A stretch of 64,000 nucleotides of DNA from Streptomyces sp. NBC_01445 (GTDB lineage: Bacteria; Actinomycetota; Actinomycetes; Streptomycetales; Streptomycetaceae), in the NCBI RefSeq assembly GCF_035918235.1, contig NZ_CP109485.1, positions 3,720,001-3,784,000 on the forward strand, written 5' to 3'. The stretch's first letter is position 1; every line of letters starts with the position of its first letter. This document shows, in pieces, positions 1-6,167 of this stretch. The notes beneath the pieces were generated by a model, which worked only from the letters and a program-made list of their open reading frames with translations, was not told the DNA's origin and ran no database searches. A program made the translations under genes and the position numbers.

Positions 1-941
1 CGCCCCTCATCCACACCGTCACCGACCCGCTCCCCGCGGCCGCCGTACGTGGCCCGGCCCTGGCCCACGAGCATCTGGTGCTCGACCTCGACCGGCGCGG
101 CGACGGCAGCGCGGTCCTCGACGCCGAGGCACACGGGCCGGCCGTCACGGCCGAACTGGCCGCCCTGCGCGAGGAGTTCGGCCTCGCCCTGGTGATCGAG
201 CTGACCTGCCGCGGCATGGGGCGCGACCCGCGCGCCCTGGCCCGGATCTCCCGGGACGCGCAGGTCGCCGTCGTCGCGGCCACCGGCTGGTACTACGAGC
301 CGTTCCACACGCCCGAGCTGGCCGGCGCGGAGGTCGGGCATCTGGCCGACACGCTGGTCCGCGAGATCGACGGCGGTCTCGGCGCAAGCGGCATCCGGCC
401 GGGCGTGCTCGGCGAGGTCGGCAGCCACGGTGACGTGCCCAGCGAGCCGGAGTCGCGTGCGCTGCGGGCGGCGGCGCGGGCCGCCGTCGCCACCGGCCTG
501 TCGGTCGCCACGCACGCGCAGCTCGGCCGCGGCGGGCTCGCCCAGCTGGAGCTGCTCACCGGCGAGGGCCTCGCCCCGCACCGGATCTCGGTCGGCCACC
601 AGGACCTCCTCGACGATCCGGCCGTGCACAAGGAGCTGGCCGCGAGCGGCGCGTACGTCGCGTTCGACACGGTCGGCAAGGAGAGCTACCAGAGCGACGA
701 CATCCGGCTGCGGCTGCTGCTCGCCCTCCTGGAGGCCGGCTACGCCGACCGTGTCCTGCTCAGCTGCGACATCTCGCGCCACGGCTATCTGGAGCGCGAG
801 GGCGGTCAGGGTTACGGGCATCTGTTCCGGTCGTTCCTGCCCCGCGCCCGTGCCGCGGGCGTGGACGACGGCCTGATGGACCTGATGACGCGCCGCAATC
901 CGCTGCGCTTCCTGACCGGCGCGAGCGTGGAGGAGATCTGA
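1..941 (+). CDS. php: Phosphotriesterase-homology protein (Php/YhfV-like), 5' end outside window
   Basis: Binuclear-metal amidohydrolase of the phosphotriesterase superfamily. The frame stays open to the left edge, so the gene begins before the window; the GTG at 78 is internal. The first metal motif H-E-H is encoded at 66-74, upstream of that GTG. Further ligands are a Glu in GEVG (the position held by carboxylated Lys in true phosphotriesterases and by Glu in E. coli Php), His in ATHAQ, His in VGHQD and Asp in SCDIS. The C-terminal half reads like E. coli Php throughout. The substrate is unknown for this subfamily. An RBS-like aggag sits in its 3' end, 2 nt before the next ATG, so it is the head or an internal gene of the operon that follows. 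Family assignment is strong; reaction not known. Confidence 0.85.
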   Translation, partial: PLIHTVTDPLPAAAVRGPALAHEHLVLDLDRRGDGSAVLDAEAHGPAVTAELAALREEFGLALVIELTCRGMGRDPRALARISRDAQVAVVAATGWYYEPFHTPELAGAEVGHLADTLVREIDGGLGASGIRPGVLGEVGSHGDVPSEPESRALRAAARAAVATGLSVATHAQLGRGGLAQLELLTGEGLAPHRISVGHQDLLDDPAVHKELAASGAYVAFDTVGKESYQSDDIRLRLLLALLEAGYADRVLLSCDISRHGYLEREGGQGYGHLFRSFLPRARAAGVDDGLMDLMTRRNPLRFLTGASVEEI

Positions 942-943
942 CG

Positions 944-2146
944 ATGACGCCCACACACTCGGCCGCACCCGCGCTCCCCGAGACCTTTCCGCTCGCCACG
1001 ATCCCGGTCGACGAGGCGATGGCCCGGCAGTTCCGGCTGATCGAGTGCACCGCCGCGCACTTCGCCGGCGAGGAGCTGTTCAGCGCCGACGCGGGCGTCG
1101 TGCCGGGGCTCGGCCGGCCCCGCACGACCGCCAAGGCCGAGGCGGTGCTCGCCGGCTTCTTCGGGGCCGAGGACGCCGCGTTCGTCCAGGGCGCGGGCAC
1201 CGGAGCGATCCGTGCCGCGCTGAACGCCGCGGTGAGCGCGGGTGACCCGCTGCTGATCCACCGGGCGCCGGTGTACCGGACCACCGAGGTCACGCTGCGC
1301 GGCATCGGCGTACGCACCGAAGAGGTCGACTTCAACGACCTGGGCGCGCTGCGCGAGGCCCTCGCGTCGGGGCGCTTCCGGTGGGCGTACGTCCAGCACA
1401 CCCGGCAGCGGCTCGGCGACTCGTACGACCCGGGCGAGGTGCTCGCCGCCTGCCGGGCGGCCGGAGTGCGCACCATCGTCGACGACAACTACGCCGTGCT
1501 GCGTGTGCCCGCGTCGGGCGTCGAACTCGGCGCGGACGCCTCCTGTTTCTCGCTGTTCAAACTGCACGGGCCCGAGGGCGTGGGCATCGTCGTCGGGGCG
1601 CGTGACCTTGTCGAGCGGGTCCGCGCGGACAACTACTCGGGCGGCGGTCAGGTCCAGGGTCATCAGGCGCTGGACGTGCTGCGCGCCCTGACGCACGTGC
1701 CGGTGATGTGGGCGGTGCAGTCGCGGGTGGGCGCCCAGGTCGCGGAGCGGCTCGCCGCCGGTGAGGTGCCCGGGGTCGCCGAGGTGCGGCTCGCGAACGC
1801 GCAGGACCGGTGCCTGCTGGTACGCCTGGACCGGCCCGTGGCGCGCCAACTCCCCGCTGTCGCCGCCCGGTTCGGCGCCGCGCCCTATCCCGTCGGCTCC
1901 AACTCCCGTTATGAGATCGCGCCGCTCTTCTACCGCATGTCCAGCTCGTCCCTCGACGACTCCCCCGGACTCGCGGACTGGACGGTGCGGATCAATCCGA
2001 TGCGGGCGGGCGCCGACCTCGTGATCGACATCCTGCGCCGCTCCCTGGACGCGGTGCACAGCCACGAACTCGACGCGGCACAGAGCCACGGACTCGACGC
2101 AGTACAGAACCACAACGCAGTGCAGAACCACGCAAAGGACGACTGA
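944..2146 (+). CDS. yhfS: PLP-dependent transferase, YhfS-like
   Basis: 400-residue fold-type I PLP enzyme resembling E. coli YhfS and cystathionine-lyase/aminotransferase families. Visible features: a cofactor-site Asp pair in IVDDNYAV (near 180) and the probable Schiff-base lysine in SLFKLHGPEG (Lys206), preceded by a glycine-rich QGAGTGAIR segment near 82-90. ATG lies 2 nt after the previous stop with an aggag ribosome site, so translation is coupled. The last about 30 residues are an imperfect repeat (LDAVHSHE, LDAAQSHG, LDAVQNHN, AVQNHA) that looks like a recent microexpansion and is unlikely to be catalytic. Substrate unknown; likely an amino acid or amino-phosphonate-type compound by context (inference). 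Confidence 0.8.
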   Translation: MTPTHSAAPALPETFPLATIPVDEAMARQFRLIECTAAHFAGEELFSADAGVVPGLGRPRTTAKAEAVLAGFFGAEDAAFVQGAGTGAIRAALNAAVSAGDPLLIHRAPVYRTTEVTLRGIGVRTEEVDFNDLGALREALASGRFRWAYVQHTRQRLGDSYDPGEVLAACRAAGVRTIVDDNYAVLRVPASGVELGADASCFSLFKLHGPEGVGIVVGARDLVERVRADNYSGGGQVQGHQALDVLRALTHVPVMWAVQSRVGAQVAERLAAGEVPGVAEVRLANAQDRCLLVRLDRPVARQLPAVAARFGAAPYPVGSNSRYEIAPLFYRMSSSSLDDSPGLADWTVRINPMRAGADLVIDILRRSLDAVHSHELDAAQSHGLDAVQNHNAVQNHAKDD

Positions 2147-2148
2147 CC

Positions 2149-3312
2149 GTGTTCCTCGACAGCCTGCTCACCCGCAACCCCGAGCTCGTCGACGCCGCGG
2201 CCGACCTCCACCGGCGGGGCGCGATCCCGCCCGACACGTACGTCATGGATCTCGACGCGATCGAGTCGAACGCCGCGCTGCTCGCCGCCGAGGCGGACCG
2301 GCTCGGGCTCACCCTCTGGTTCGTCGTGAAGCAGCTCGGCCGCAACCCCGAGCTGATCAGGGCGATCGCCCGGCACATCCCGAAGTACGCGGCCATCGAC
2401 GCGCAGGAGGCCCGCACCCTGCACGCGGCGGGCGCGCAGGCCGGAAACCTCGGCCACCTCGTGCAGATCCCGCGCCGCTCGCTCCCCGAGATGCTGGCCT
2501 GGCGCCCGGAGACCGTGACCGTCCTCGACATCGACAACGCCCGCGCGGTCTCGGACGCGGCGCGCGCGCAGGGCTTCGTCCAGGACGTCCTCGTACGCCT
2601 CGAAGGAGCGGAGGGTGCGGTCTATCCCGGGCAGGAGGGCGGCGTTCCGCTCGGCACGCTCGACGACTTCGCGGCGGCCGCCGAGGAGTTGCCCGGGGTG
2701 CGGATCGCGGGCGTCACCGCGTTCCCGTGCGTGCTGTGCGACCCGGCGACGGGCACGCCACGCCTCACCGACAACTTCGAACTGGCCTTCAAGGCAAGGG
2801 AGTTGCTCACCTCACGCGGGCACGAAGGCCTCAAGCTGAGCGCCCCGAGCGCCACCTCCATGGCCACCCTCCCGCTCCTCGCCGAGCACGGCGCGACCCA
2901 CGGCGAGCCGGGCCACTCACTCACCGGCACCACGCCCCTGCATGCCCGCGACGCCGGCCAGCCCGAGCGGCCGGCGTACGTCTACGTCACCGAGGTCGCC
3001 CACACCCTCGCCGACGGCCGGCCCGCCGTGTTCGGCGGCGGTTTCTACCCCCGCGCGCACATCGGGTCCGCGCTGCTGCCCCGCACGGGCCGACGCCTTG
3101 CGGTGCAGGACGCGCCCGCGGAGAACATCGACTACTACCGGCTGCTCGACGCGCCCGACCCCGGCCGCGCGCCCACGGCGGGCGACACGGCGCTGCTCGC
3201 GTTCCGTACGCAGATCTTCGTGACCCGGTCGACGGTCGCGGTGGTGGCGGGCCTGTCGTCCGGTTCGCCGCGCCTGACCGGCCTGTACGACGCGCAAGGA
3301 AGGGCCCTGTGA
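2149..3312 (+). CDS. yhfX: Alanine-racemase-fold PLP protein, YhfX-like
   Basis: 387-residue fold-type III PLP protein (alanine racemase N-terminal family) matching E. coli YhfX in length and layout. The beta-alpha barrel begins with YVMDLDAIESN. The PLP lysine is expected at Lys61 in FVVKQLGRNP. A phosphate-binding SAPSATSM stretch and a C-terminal beta region (FGGGFYPRAH) follow. GTG start 2 nt after the yhfS-like stop; its TGA overlaps the next ATG by one base (TGATG). Probably racemises or epimerises an amino acid-like intermediate of the cluster (inference from fold and from the neighbouring PLP enzyme); no substrate can be read from the sequence. Confidence 0.8.
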   Translation: MFLDSLLTRNPELVDAAADLHRRGAIPPDTYVMDLDAIESNAALLAAEADRLGLTLWFVVKQLGRNPELIRAIARHIPKYAAIDAQEARTLHAAGAQAGNLGHLVQIPRRSLPEMLAWRPETVTVLDIDNARAVSDAARAQGFVQDVLVRLEGAEGAVYPGQEGGVPLGTLDDFAAAAEELPGVRIAGVTAFPCVLCDPATGTPRLTDNFELAFKARELLTSRGHEGLKLSAPSATSMATLPLLAEHGATHGEPGHSLTGTTPLHARDAGQPERPAYVYVTEVAHTLADGRPAVFGGGFYPRAHIGSALLPRTGRRLAVQDAPAENIDYYRLLDAPDPGRAPTAGDTALLAFRTQIFVTRSTVAVVAGLSSGSPRLTGLYDAQGRAL

Positions 3313-4547
3313 TGAGCAAGACCGTCATCGTCGTCGTCGACGGATTCGGTGTCGGCGCCATGCCGGACGCGGGGGCCCTGCGCCCCGGCGACCTGGCGGC
3401 GGACACCTGCGGGCATGTGCTCGACCGGTGCCGCGAGGCGTTCGGTCGCCCGCTGCGGCTGCCCGCGCTCGGTGCGCTCGGGCTCGGCCTGGTCCATCCG
3501 CACCCGGACCTCGCGCGGCGCGCCCAGCTGCCGGTCGCGGCGGGCCGGGCCGGGCTCGGCTACCCCGGCGCGGACACGTACGCGGGTCACCAGACGATGA
3601 TGGGCGCCGACTTCAGCCGGGTGACGGTGGCCCGGCTCGGCGACCACCTCGACGAGGTGACGGCGGCCCTGGAGGCCGCGGGACACCGGGTCGAACTCCT
3701 CGGCGACAGACCCCTGTTGGTGGTCGACGGGGTTGTTCTCGTGCACGACAACCTGGAGGCCGACCCGGGTATCAACTGGAACGCCTCGGCCCGCCTCGAC
3801 GATCTGGGCTTCGACGGGATCCTCTCCGTCGCGCGTACGGTGCGCGCGGTGGCGCCCGTCGCGCGGGTGATCGCGGTGGGCGGCCACGCGAGCGGACCGC
3901 TGCCCGATTTCGTACGCGAAGGGGACGGCGGAACGGTCGGCCTGGACACCCCGGCGAGCGGCTTCTACCGCAACGGTGGCCTTGAGGTGCGGCATCTCGG
4001 CGCGGGCCTCGACCACACGCGGCAACTCCCGGACCTGGCGGCGCGGGCCGGGATTCCCGTCACGCTCGTCGGGAAGGCCGCGGACATCCTGGCCTGCGAC
4101 GACGCGGTGCGGCGCCCGGCGGTGCCGACCGCGGACGTGCTCGCGCACACGCTGGAAGCCGTCCGTGCGGGGGGCGACGCACTGGTCGTGGCCAATGTGC
4201 AGGAGAGCGATCTGGCCGGGCACCAGCAGGACGTGGAGCGTTACGGGCACGTCCTGGAGCAGGTCGACGCGGGGCTCGCGGCGCTCGTCTCCCTGCTCGA
4301 CGCGGACGGCGACCGGCTGATCGTGACCGGCGACCACGGCAACGACCCGACGATCGGCCACGCTTTCCACACCCGGGAGTTCGTGCCGGTGCTCGTCCAC
4401 CGCCCGGGTGCGGCAGGTGTCGAGCTGCTGCCGGACGCGGGCAGCCTGGCGGACGTGGGCGCGACGGCCGCGGCGGCGCTCGGCCTCGATCCGGCGGGGC
4501 TCGCGAACGGCACGGAGGTCAGTCGGACGGCGGCGCGGGCGGCCTGA
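3312..4547 (+). CDS. yhfW: Phosphopentomutase-like metalloenzyme, YhfW-like
   Basis: 411-residue alkaline-phosphatase-superfamily enzyme related to phosphopentomutase (DeoB) and to E. coli YhfW. N-terminal metal motif VVDGFGVGAMPDA; the phosphoacceptor threonine lies in GADTYAGHQTMMG; a second metal set is in ESDLAGHQQD and TGDHGNDPTIGHAFHTRE, as in DeoB. The ATG at 3312 is chosen because it overlaps the upstream stop and starts exactly at the family N terminus; the open frame reaches much further upstream but that part is a shadow. Housekeeping DeoB normally sits with nucleoside genes; here it is last in a php/yhfS/yhfX group, so a mutase or phosphotransfer step on a cluster-specific phospho-compound is likelier (inference). 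Confidence 0.82.
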   Translation: MSKTVIVVVDGFGVGAMPDAGALRPGDLAADTCGHVLDRCREAFGRPLRLPALGALGLGLVHPHPDLARRAQLPVAAGRAGLGYPGADTYAGHQTMMGADFSRVTVARLGDHLDEVTAALEAAGHRVELLGDRPLLVVDGVVLVHDNLEADPGINWNASARLDDLGFDGILSVARTVRAVAPVARVIAVGGHASGPLPDFVREGDGGTVGLDTPASGFYRNGGLEVRHLGAGLDHTRQLPDLAARAGIPVTLVGKAADILACDDAVRRPAVPTADVLAHTLEAVRAGGDALVVANVQESDLAGHQQDVERYGHVLEQVDAGLAALVSLLDADGDRLIVTGDHGNDPTIGHAFHTREFVPVLVHRPGAAGVELLPDAGSLADVGATAAAALGLDPAGLANGTEVSRTAARAA

Positions 4548-4554
4548 CCCGCCC

Positions 4555-4596
4555 ATGCGTAAGGGGCGCCCGCAATGGCGGGCGCCCCTTACGCAT
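4555..4596. terminator. Perfect 19-bp inverted repeat between convergent operons
   Basis: Arms 4555-4573 and 4578-4596 are perfect reverse complements around the loop AATG. It lies between the end of the yhf-like operon (+) and the end of ffh (-), so it can stop transcription from both sides. No T-run follows, as is usual for Streptomyces hairpin terminators. Confidence 0.8.
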
Positions 4597-4613
4597 GTCT
4601 ACGAAGTGGCCGG

Positions 4614-6167
4614 TCAGCCCATGAACTTCTTGAACTCGTCGGGCAGTTCGAAGTTCTTGTCCTGCTCCCCGGCGGGCAGGCCGAACGCGTTCCCGCTCTG
4701 GCCGGCGGCCTCGCGGCGCGCGGCCTCTTCCTCTTCCTGCTGCTTGCGCTTCATCGGGTTGCCGGAGCGCTGCTTGCCCTTGGCCTGCTTCTGCTTCTTC
4801 TTCTGCCGGCCGGGGCCGCCGCCCATGCCCGGCATCCCGGGCATCCCCGGCATGCCGCCGCCCTGGGCCATGCGGGACATCATCTTGCGGGCCTCGAAGA
4901 ACCGCTCGACGAGGTTCTTCACCGCGCTGACCTCGACGCCCGAACCACGGGCGATACGGGCACGGCGCGAGCCGTTGATGATCGTGGCGTCCGCGCGCTC
5001 GGCCGGGGTCATCGACTTGATGATGGCGGCCGTGCGGTCGACGTCGCGCTCGTCGAGGTTGTTGATCTGGTCCTTCATCTGCGCCATGCCGGGCAGCATC
5101 CCGAGCAGCTTGGAGATGGAGCCCATCTTCCTGACCTGCTCCATCTGGGCCAGGAAGTCGTCGAGCGTGAAGTCCTGGCCCTTCTTGGAGGCCAGCTTGG
5201 AGGCCATCTTCTCGGCCTCCTGCTGCGAGAAGGTCTGCTCGGCCTTCTCGATCAGCGTGAGCATGTCGCCCATGCCGAGGATGCGGGACGCCATGCGGTC
5301 CGGGTGGAACGCGTCGAAGTCGTCCAGCTTCTCGCCGTTCGAGGCGAACATGACCTGGCGGCCGGTGACGTGCGCGATCGACAGGGCGGCACCACCACGG
5401 GCGTCACCGTCGAGCTTGGAGAGCACCACGCCGTCGAAGCCGACGCCGTCACGGAAGGCCTCGGCGGTGTTGACCGCGTCCTGACCGATCATGGCGTCGA
5501 CGACGAAGAGGACCTCGTCGGGCGAGACGGCGTCGCGGATGTCCGCGGCCTGCTGCATCAGCTCCTGGTCGATACCCAGGCGGCCGGCGGTGTCGACGAT
5601 GACGACGTCGTACTGCTTCTGCCGGGCGAACTCGACGGAGTCCTTGGCGACCTGAACCGGGTCGCCCACGCCGTTGCCCGGCTCGGGGGCGTAGATGCCG
5701 ACGCCGGCGCGCTCGGCGACGACGGACAGCTGGTTCACGGCGTTGGGGCGCTGGAGGTCACAGGCGACGAGCAGCGGCGCGTGGCCCTGCCCCTTCAGCC
5801 AGTGGCCGAGCTTTCCGGCGAGGGTCGTCTTACCGGCACCCTGGAGACCCGCGAGCATGATCACCGTGGGCGGGTTCTTGGCGAACCGCAGGCGCCGGGT
5901 CTCGCCGCCGAGGATGCCGATGAGCTCCTCGTTGACGATCTTGATGACCTGCTGGGCGGGGTTCAGCGCCTGGGAGACCTCCGCGCCGGCCGCACGCTCC
6001 TTGACCTGCTTGATGAAGGCGCGGACGACGGGCAGGGCCACGTCCGCTTCGAGCAGGGCGATACGGATCTCGCGCGCCGTGGCGTCGATGTCCGCCTCGC
6101 TGAGGCGCCCCTTGCCGCGGAGGTTCTTGAATGTCGCTGCGAGGCGGTCGGAAAGAGTGTCGAACAC
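4614..6167 (-). CDS. ffh: Signal recognition particle GTPase Ffh
   Basis: 517-residue SRP54. It binds signal peptides and 4.5S RNA and pairs with FtsY (encoded at 13.8-15.0 kb) to deliver ribosomes to the membrane. N domain at about 1-95; P-loop GLQGAGKTT at 107-115; DTAGRL and SKLDGDARGG in the G domain; Met-rich M domain with a MPGMPGMPGM run, then a Lys/Gln-rich tail. GTG at 6167 is chosen because the family starts (M)FDTLSDRL there; the longer open frame to 6308 has no family match. A weak GAGGA lies 12 nt upstream. It follows glnD on the same strand, with 168 bp and a hairpin between. Confidence 0.97.
   Translation of the reverse strand: MFDTLSDRLAATFKNLRGKGRLSEADIDATAREIRIALLEADVALPVVRAFIKQVKERAAGAEVSQALNPAQQVIKIVNEELIGILGGETRRLRFAKNPPTVIMLAGLQGAGKTTLAGKLGHWLKGQGHAPLLVACDLQRPNAVNQLSVVAERAGVGIYAPEPGNGVGDPVQVAKDSVEFARQKQYDVVIVDTAGRLGIDQELMQQAADIRDAVSPDEVLFVVDAMIGQDAVNTAEAFRDGVGFDGVVLSKLDGDARGGAALSIAHVTGRQVMFASNGEKLDDFDAFHPDRMASRILGMGDMLTLIEKAEQTFSQQEAEKMASKLASKKGQDFTLDDFLAQMEQVRKMGSISKLLGMLPGMAQMKDQINNLDERDVDRTAAIIKSMTPAERADATIINGSRRARIARGSGVEVSAVKNLVERFFEARKMMSRMAQGGGMPGMPGMPGMGGGPGRQKKKQKQAKGKQRSGNPMKRKQQEEEEAARREAAGQSGNAFGLPAGEQDKNFELPDEFKKFMG

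Follow-up and report, generated by a model that had tools for sequence, protein, structure and literature searches.

The yhf operon of Escherichia coli K-12 is an orphan even in that organism, although the structures of YhfS, YhfX and Php have been solved; among the titles listed by our literature search, which had most subscription papers outside its reach, none is a functional study of it. In K-12, eight gene families lie contiguously on one strand in the order yhfZ, yhfY, yhfX, yhfW, php, yhfU, yhfT, yhfS (written Z-Y-X-W-php-U-T-S below). Here we describe the corresponding locus of Streptomyces sp. NBC_01445, which was met at the left edge of a 64,000-nucleotide stretch (the window, G000:C1:3720001-3784000, in a genome of 11.47 Mb) whose first position falls within an operon, inside php. 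Once the left flank is added (L008, G000:C1:3706001-3725900, where a position minus 14000 gives the window position), the locus forms a complete yhf operon, which we read as a regulated catabolic unit, and all eight E. coli families stand side by side on one strand as Z-Y-U-T-php-S-X-W. The presence of such an operon is not in itself new, because YhfT proteins from Fusobacteriaceae, Clostridium, Brachyspira and others are already held in the protein database, where the Streptomyces copies are also annotated as YhfT family; the operon is of a known but uncharacterised kind.

The four window genes, php, yhfS, yhfX and yhfW, share one strand and nearly abut each other between window positions 1 and 4547 (Table 1). 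A first-pass annotation, made from the sequence alone, had read them as the E. coli yhf enzyme set, and Pfam, NCBIfam and PDB matches bear this out for all four products. Among solved structures, Php matches its E. coli namesake best (1bf6/4lef, 171 bits), YhfS matches 4j8l (340 bits) and YhfX matches 4kbx (271 bits); identities with the K-12 proteins amount to 36% for Php, 48% for YhfS and 39% for both YhfX and YhfW. YhfW reaches the curated equivalog cut-off of NF009049, as does YhfZ that of NF041241, while the window Php scores 198 bits against the cut-off of 486 for the E. coli Php equivalog NF007373 and is best classed, on its sequence, as a phosphotriesterase (PTE)-family Php-like protein outside that equivalog. 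The annotation had further supposed that YhfT and YhfU might lie to the left, and both are there, together with the regulator gene yhfZ and with yhfY, all four outside the window and on the same strand as php-yhfW. Neither unrelated families lacking common neighbours nor a known pathway on the left was encountered.

Table 1. Features of the yhf locus (window positions unless prefixed L008)
Feature	Position	Strand	Match or evidence
yhfZ, regulator	L008 10765-11703	+	NF041241 344 bits, cut-off 260
yhfY, PRD	L008 11808-12209, from ATG after operator 2	+	PF00874 28 bits, cut-off 23
yhfU, DUF2620	L008 12206-12562	+	114 bits on 90-amino-acid piece
yhfT, membrane protein	L008 12603-13952	+	PF10797 513 bits
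php, phosphotriesterase homology protein	1..941; ATG 10 nucleotides left of window edge (L008 13991)	+	PTE PF02126 188 bits
yhfS, fold-I pyridoxal phosphate (PLP) enzyme	944..2146	+	YhfS-like_C PF22475 145 bits
yhfX, fold-III PLP enzyme	2149..3312	+	YhfX-like_C PF21279 84 bits, and Ala_racemase_N PF01168
yhfW, phosphopentomutase-like, alkaline phosphatase superfamily	3312..4547	+	PRK12383/NF009049 450.7 bits, cut-off 254
Strong inverted repeat in the gap between yhfW and convergent ffh	4554..4597	.	Opposite-strand self-match 95%

Compared with K-12, the Streptomyces operon keeps the pairs Z-Y, U-T and X-W and differs in overall gene order; seven of its proteins are 31-48% identical to their K-12 counterparts, whereas YhfY has no significant BLASTP match there (E 0.8). 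The cluster of Cetobacterium somerae (plasmid NZ_CP092520.1) has the same order as ours and differs by an extra gene between yhfT and php, annotated as amidase family, which scores 21 bits against the Pfam Amidase cut-off of 27. Vibrio halioticoli carries Z-Y-php-U-T-X-W, with no yhfS match within the 21 kb read. The adjacency of yhfU and yhfT is common to all four organisms.

Within Streptomyces, the YhfT cut-off was passed in 35 of 295 genomes (36 at E 0.001); across the class, YhfT was found in 11 of 296 genomes, belonging to 4 of 114 genera. The closest named match of our YhfT, at 99% identity, comes from Streptomyces sp. CB01635. Among named genomes, 197 loci were confirmed, of which we retained the 80 best (77 from Streptomyces and three from Actinomadura); the exact order Z-Y-U-T-php-S-X-W is found in 57 of these 80, and several others are cut by contig ends. 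A gene was counted as missing where at least 5 kb of sequence extended beyond the last yhf gene. On this basis yhfW is missing from seven loci, six of them Y-U-T-php-S-X (L103, L109, L116, L117, L122 and L125) and one the same with Z (L118), and two loci stop after php (L119, Y-U-T-php; L123, Z-Y-U-T-php); L046, from genome G219, likewise consists of Y-U-T-php. A YhfX-like_C match is present in none of the three genomes of L119, L123 and L046, and occurs once in each of the two Y-U-T-php-S-X genomes checked (L103 and L116) and once in our own genome. Since L119 and L046 hold only these four genes, and since their genomes and that of L123 are without YhfX-like_C, the PRD protein YhfY, YhfU, YhfT and Php form the smallest set seen. 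Separately, a divergent yhfT (L044/L131, G542:C15) is preceded, at a distance of about 1.7 kb, by a gene for a sugar-type binding protein (Peripla_BP_4); the stretch read shows no second yhf match.

Conservation was counted over proteins above set length limits, most rows being from Streptomyces. One alignment, A5, leaves out the wrong-frame row L067 of A4 and the longer members P0206 and P0214. The Php metal ligands HxH, Glu, His, His and Asp are present in 81 of 81 rows; the Glu at the bridging position, which the first-pass annotation had noted, was located by motif and is kept throughout the same rows. In YhfW the metal ligands are complete in 66 of 66 rows and the nucleophile is Thr in 65, with Ser in the remaining one. 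The putative PLP lysines, assigned by motif position, are invariant (Lys206 of YhfS, 80/80; Lys61 of YhfX, 75/75), as are Cys52 and Asp33 of YhfU (88/88), while in YhfY, numbered from an upstream TTG, His63 is found in 84 of 84 rows and His126 in 81. YhfW shares its fold family, Thr nucleophile and metal ligands with DeoB, yet it falls short of the DeoB equivalog cut-offs (TIGR01696, 116.9 against 341.2 bits; NF003766, 132.4 against 256 bits), and in a hand alignment the second Arg of the DeoB motif GRVIARPF is Val or Phe. Because the catalytic residues are kept while YhfW departs from DeoB in these respects, Php, YhfS, YhfX and YhfW look active but re-specialised.

Upstream of yhfZ lies the dyad TATCCAGAATCCTGGTTA (C1:3716736-3716753), which overlaps a TTGCCA/TACTGT pair 17 nucleotides apart; the yhfZ GTG start sits close behind, suggesting that the yhfZ message is leaderless. 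Across 68 regions, conservation of the dyad core reaches 85% or more, and a perfect palindrome, TATCCAGAATTCTGGATA, occurs in a genome of another family (L045). With up to one mismatch allowed, the 11.47-Mb genome contains three sites; besides the one before yhfZ there is a site immediately before yhfY (C1:3717754-3717771) and a third at another place. As a count this is no more than a reversed control pattern gives (forward and reverse matches 2 and 2, against 3 and 1); what matters is that the yhf operon accounts for two of the three. The palindromic sites before yhfZ and yhfY are probably operators for YhfZ. A generic promoter scan returned no sigma-70 site.

Another known system that resembles the operon is the SFCGS/DUF4310-4312 cluster of the EF_0829 type. 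The two have in common membrane proteins, a fold-I PLP enzyme, an enzyme of the amidohydrolase superfamily, a PRD-like protein and a Cys-bearing protein (SFCGS in the cluster, a relative of YhfU). The SFCGS cluster differs in having its own membrane proteins (DUF4310/4311), DUF4312, a 2-keto-3-deoxy-6-phosphogluconate (KDPG)-type aldolase and an HPr domain, and no YhfT, YhfX or YhfW was seen there; conversely, DUF4310, DUF4311 and DUF4312 are absent from the yhf operon, whose membrane protein has YhfT as its Pfam family. NBC_01445 itself carries such a cluster about 2 Mb left of the window (L141:7918-13974, on G000:C1), in which SFCGS, DUF4312, DUF4311 and DUF4310 are accompanied by a PRD-like protein, an amidohydrolase, a KDPG-type aldolase and a DgaE-family enzyme that carries a fused HPr domain. 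The PRD-like protein has no Pfam match and scores 35.8 bits on TIGR03582, under the cut-off of 69. The fusion passes TIGR01437 (424.8 bits, cut-off 385.3) and the HPr model (64.9, cut-off 47.9), and its DgaE-family part remains below the narrower D-glucosaminate-6-phosphate lyase model (384.5 against 600). SFCGS was found in 4 of 246 Streptomyces, with HPr in all four clusters (model-tested in three and recognised by sequence in G161): it is fused in our own genome, in the conspecific G161 and in G191, whereas in G059 a separate HPr gene directly follows the DgaE-like one. Both DgaE and the KDPG aldolases take 6-phosphorylated substrates, and no kinase is found among the eight tested genes of our SFCGS cluster; for these reasons phosphorylation at uptake would be the economical reading for that cluster, and the eight yhf genes likewise include no kinase family.

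Several alignments connect the two systems. YhfU aligns distantly with the SFCGS protein of our own genome (hhalign E 1.2e-5, probability 81%), and YhfY with the PRD-like protein of the same cluster (hhalign E 2.2e-4, probability 45%); YhfT aligns with neither DUF4310 nor DUF4311 by the same method. In Cetobacterium, YhfY matches TIGR03582 at 8e-7, below the cut-off, and YhfU matches TIGR03577 only at E 0.22. An association with the phosphotransferase system (PTS) comes from G359, a genome of another actinobacterial family, where a single contig (C82; L043 and L130) holds yhfT, yhfU, two yhfS genes, Enzyme I (EI; TIGR01417, 433.7 bits, cut-off 341.7), HPr (TIGR01003, 75.7 bits, cut-off 47.9) and a PRD protein, which scores 48 bits, or 47 with the YhfY model, as well as a His-phosphatase-family gene, a Gfo/Idh gene and a class-III aminotransferase gene. 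All 13 genomes checked have HPr (for one of them, G113, the YhfT match is no more than sub-threshold), compared with 53 of the 118 checked in the class, a count that adds little because the eight Streptomyces listed in the class set all have HPr.

We propose a PTS link through YhfY and YhfU, which is the new and testable part of this analysis; none of the titles listed by our literature search names YhfT/YhfU or SFCGS as PTS parts. At just under even confidence, we read the operon as serving regulated, PTS-linked uptake by YhfY, YhfU and YhfT, followed by breakdown of a phosphorylated amino-sugar-type compound by Php, YhfS, YhfX and YhfW. The families, their order and their conservation are established above; the regulation and the PTS mechanism would run as follows. 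On a substrate signal, YhfZ would repress or activate two promoters at the palindromic operators. Phosphate would pass from EI/HPr to the PRD protein YhfY, at one of its His residues, and from there to the invariant Cys of YhfU, an RpiB-fold protein that would act as Enzyme IIB (EIIB), and then to the substrate on YhfT, so that YhfT and YhfU together take the substrate up. Php, whose PTE family includes phospho-furanose lactonases, would open a lactone, lactam or amide. The alpha-amino (sugar) acid so formed may then go to YhfX and YhfS, while YhfW would move the phosphate. More tentatively, YhfY-U-T and the SFCGS/DUF4310-4312 proteins could together constitute an unrecognised class of PTS permease, in which a stand-alone PRD protein hands phosphate on to an RpiB-fold Cys-EIIB (YhfU or SFCGS) working with membrane subunits that have no relation to known Enzyme IIC (EIIC) proteins. 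If true, the PTS link would add a transport class to an uptake system that is among the best studied in bacteria, and together with the operator and the natural deletion series, in which Y-U-T-php is the smallest member, it offers a concrete route to the substrate.

What weighs most against this proposal is YhfT itself, which shows no clear likeness to a known EIIC in sequence or fold: no PTS Pfam family was found among 71 members, and no clear PDB fold emerged. No EI or HPr was seen in the E. coli or Cetobacterium yhf regions or in our own operon. A somewhat less probable alternative is that YhfT is an ordinary secondary transporter, that YhfU is a soluble RpiB-family enzyme isomerising sugar phosphates and that YhfY only regulates according to the general state of the PTS. 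In its favour, YhfT shows no similarity to a PTS EIIC, PRD domains are mostly regulatory, and YhfU, when modelled, adopts the RpiB/LacAB fold and has a CxTGxG loop. On the other hand, YhfU has 118 amino acids against 149 in E. coli RpiB, is without the RpiB DH motif and C-terminal tail, and either scores below the Pfam LacAB_rpiB cut-off of 24.7 bits, as the G359 copy does with 13.4, or gives no match to that family (64 members scanned). An isomerase beside a secondary transporter would also leave EI and HPr beside yhfT in G359, HPr in the SFCGS clusters and the lack of a kinase among the eight genes standing against it.

Two further readings concern the pathway rather than the transporter. 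A role in nucleoside or pentose salvage, with YhfW as a true phosphopentomutase feeding ribose-5-phosphate, takes its appeal from the name of the NCBIfam model and from the retained Thr nucleophile and metal ligands; we consider it very improbable, given the DeoB scores and the lost Arg described above, the lack of a nucleoside phosphorylase in the operon and the seven operons that, at the locus itself as distinct from the rest of those genomes, lack yhfW with at least 5 kb read beyond yhfX. That a biosynthetic or secondary-metabolite cluster is at hand, instead of a catabolic one, appears improbable as well: the host is a Streptomyces and PLP enzymes are common in secondary-metabolite clusters, but the same set is found in E. 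coli, a fusobacterium and many Streptomyces, with most of it in a Vibrio, and uptake operons are where a permease, a PRD and a GntR-like regulator are typically met.

As to the substrate, the suggestion of the first-pass annotation, an unusual amino-acid or phosphorylated compound, fits. The Cetobacterium Php scores higher on a phospho-furanose lactonase model (114 bits) than on an organophosphate hydrolase model (86), whereas the window Php shows the reverse order (45 and 88 bits), all four scores being far below cut-off. Relatives of YhfX on alphaproteobacterial plasmids (four regions, L134-L137) are found in operons with a ROK regulator, an M20 hydrolase, a substrate-binding protein, an ATP-binding cassette (ABC) permease and an ABC ATPase, with a SIS-domain gene next in one of them, and an Embleya YhfX copy is accompanied by an amino-acid permease, a SIS protein and, with both ROK labels assigned by eye, a regulator and a kinase that are ROK-like. 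These neighbourhoods point to amino-sugars or sugar/amino-acid conjugates, and the substrate of the operon is probably an amino-sugar-acid or a sugar/amino-acid conjugate.

At the right end of the operon, the inverted repeat of Table 1 is a probable terminator common to yhfW and ffh; the RNA fold of window positions 4540-4620 has an energy of -62.3 kcal/mol (z -9.9). Further to the left, at L008:7783-8646, a methyltransferase-like open reading frame, recognised by eye, lies beside FtsH-like and proS genes, and similar frames, also by eye, precede the operons of L116, L118 and L119.

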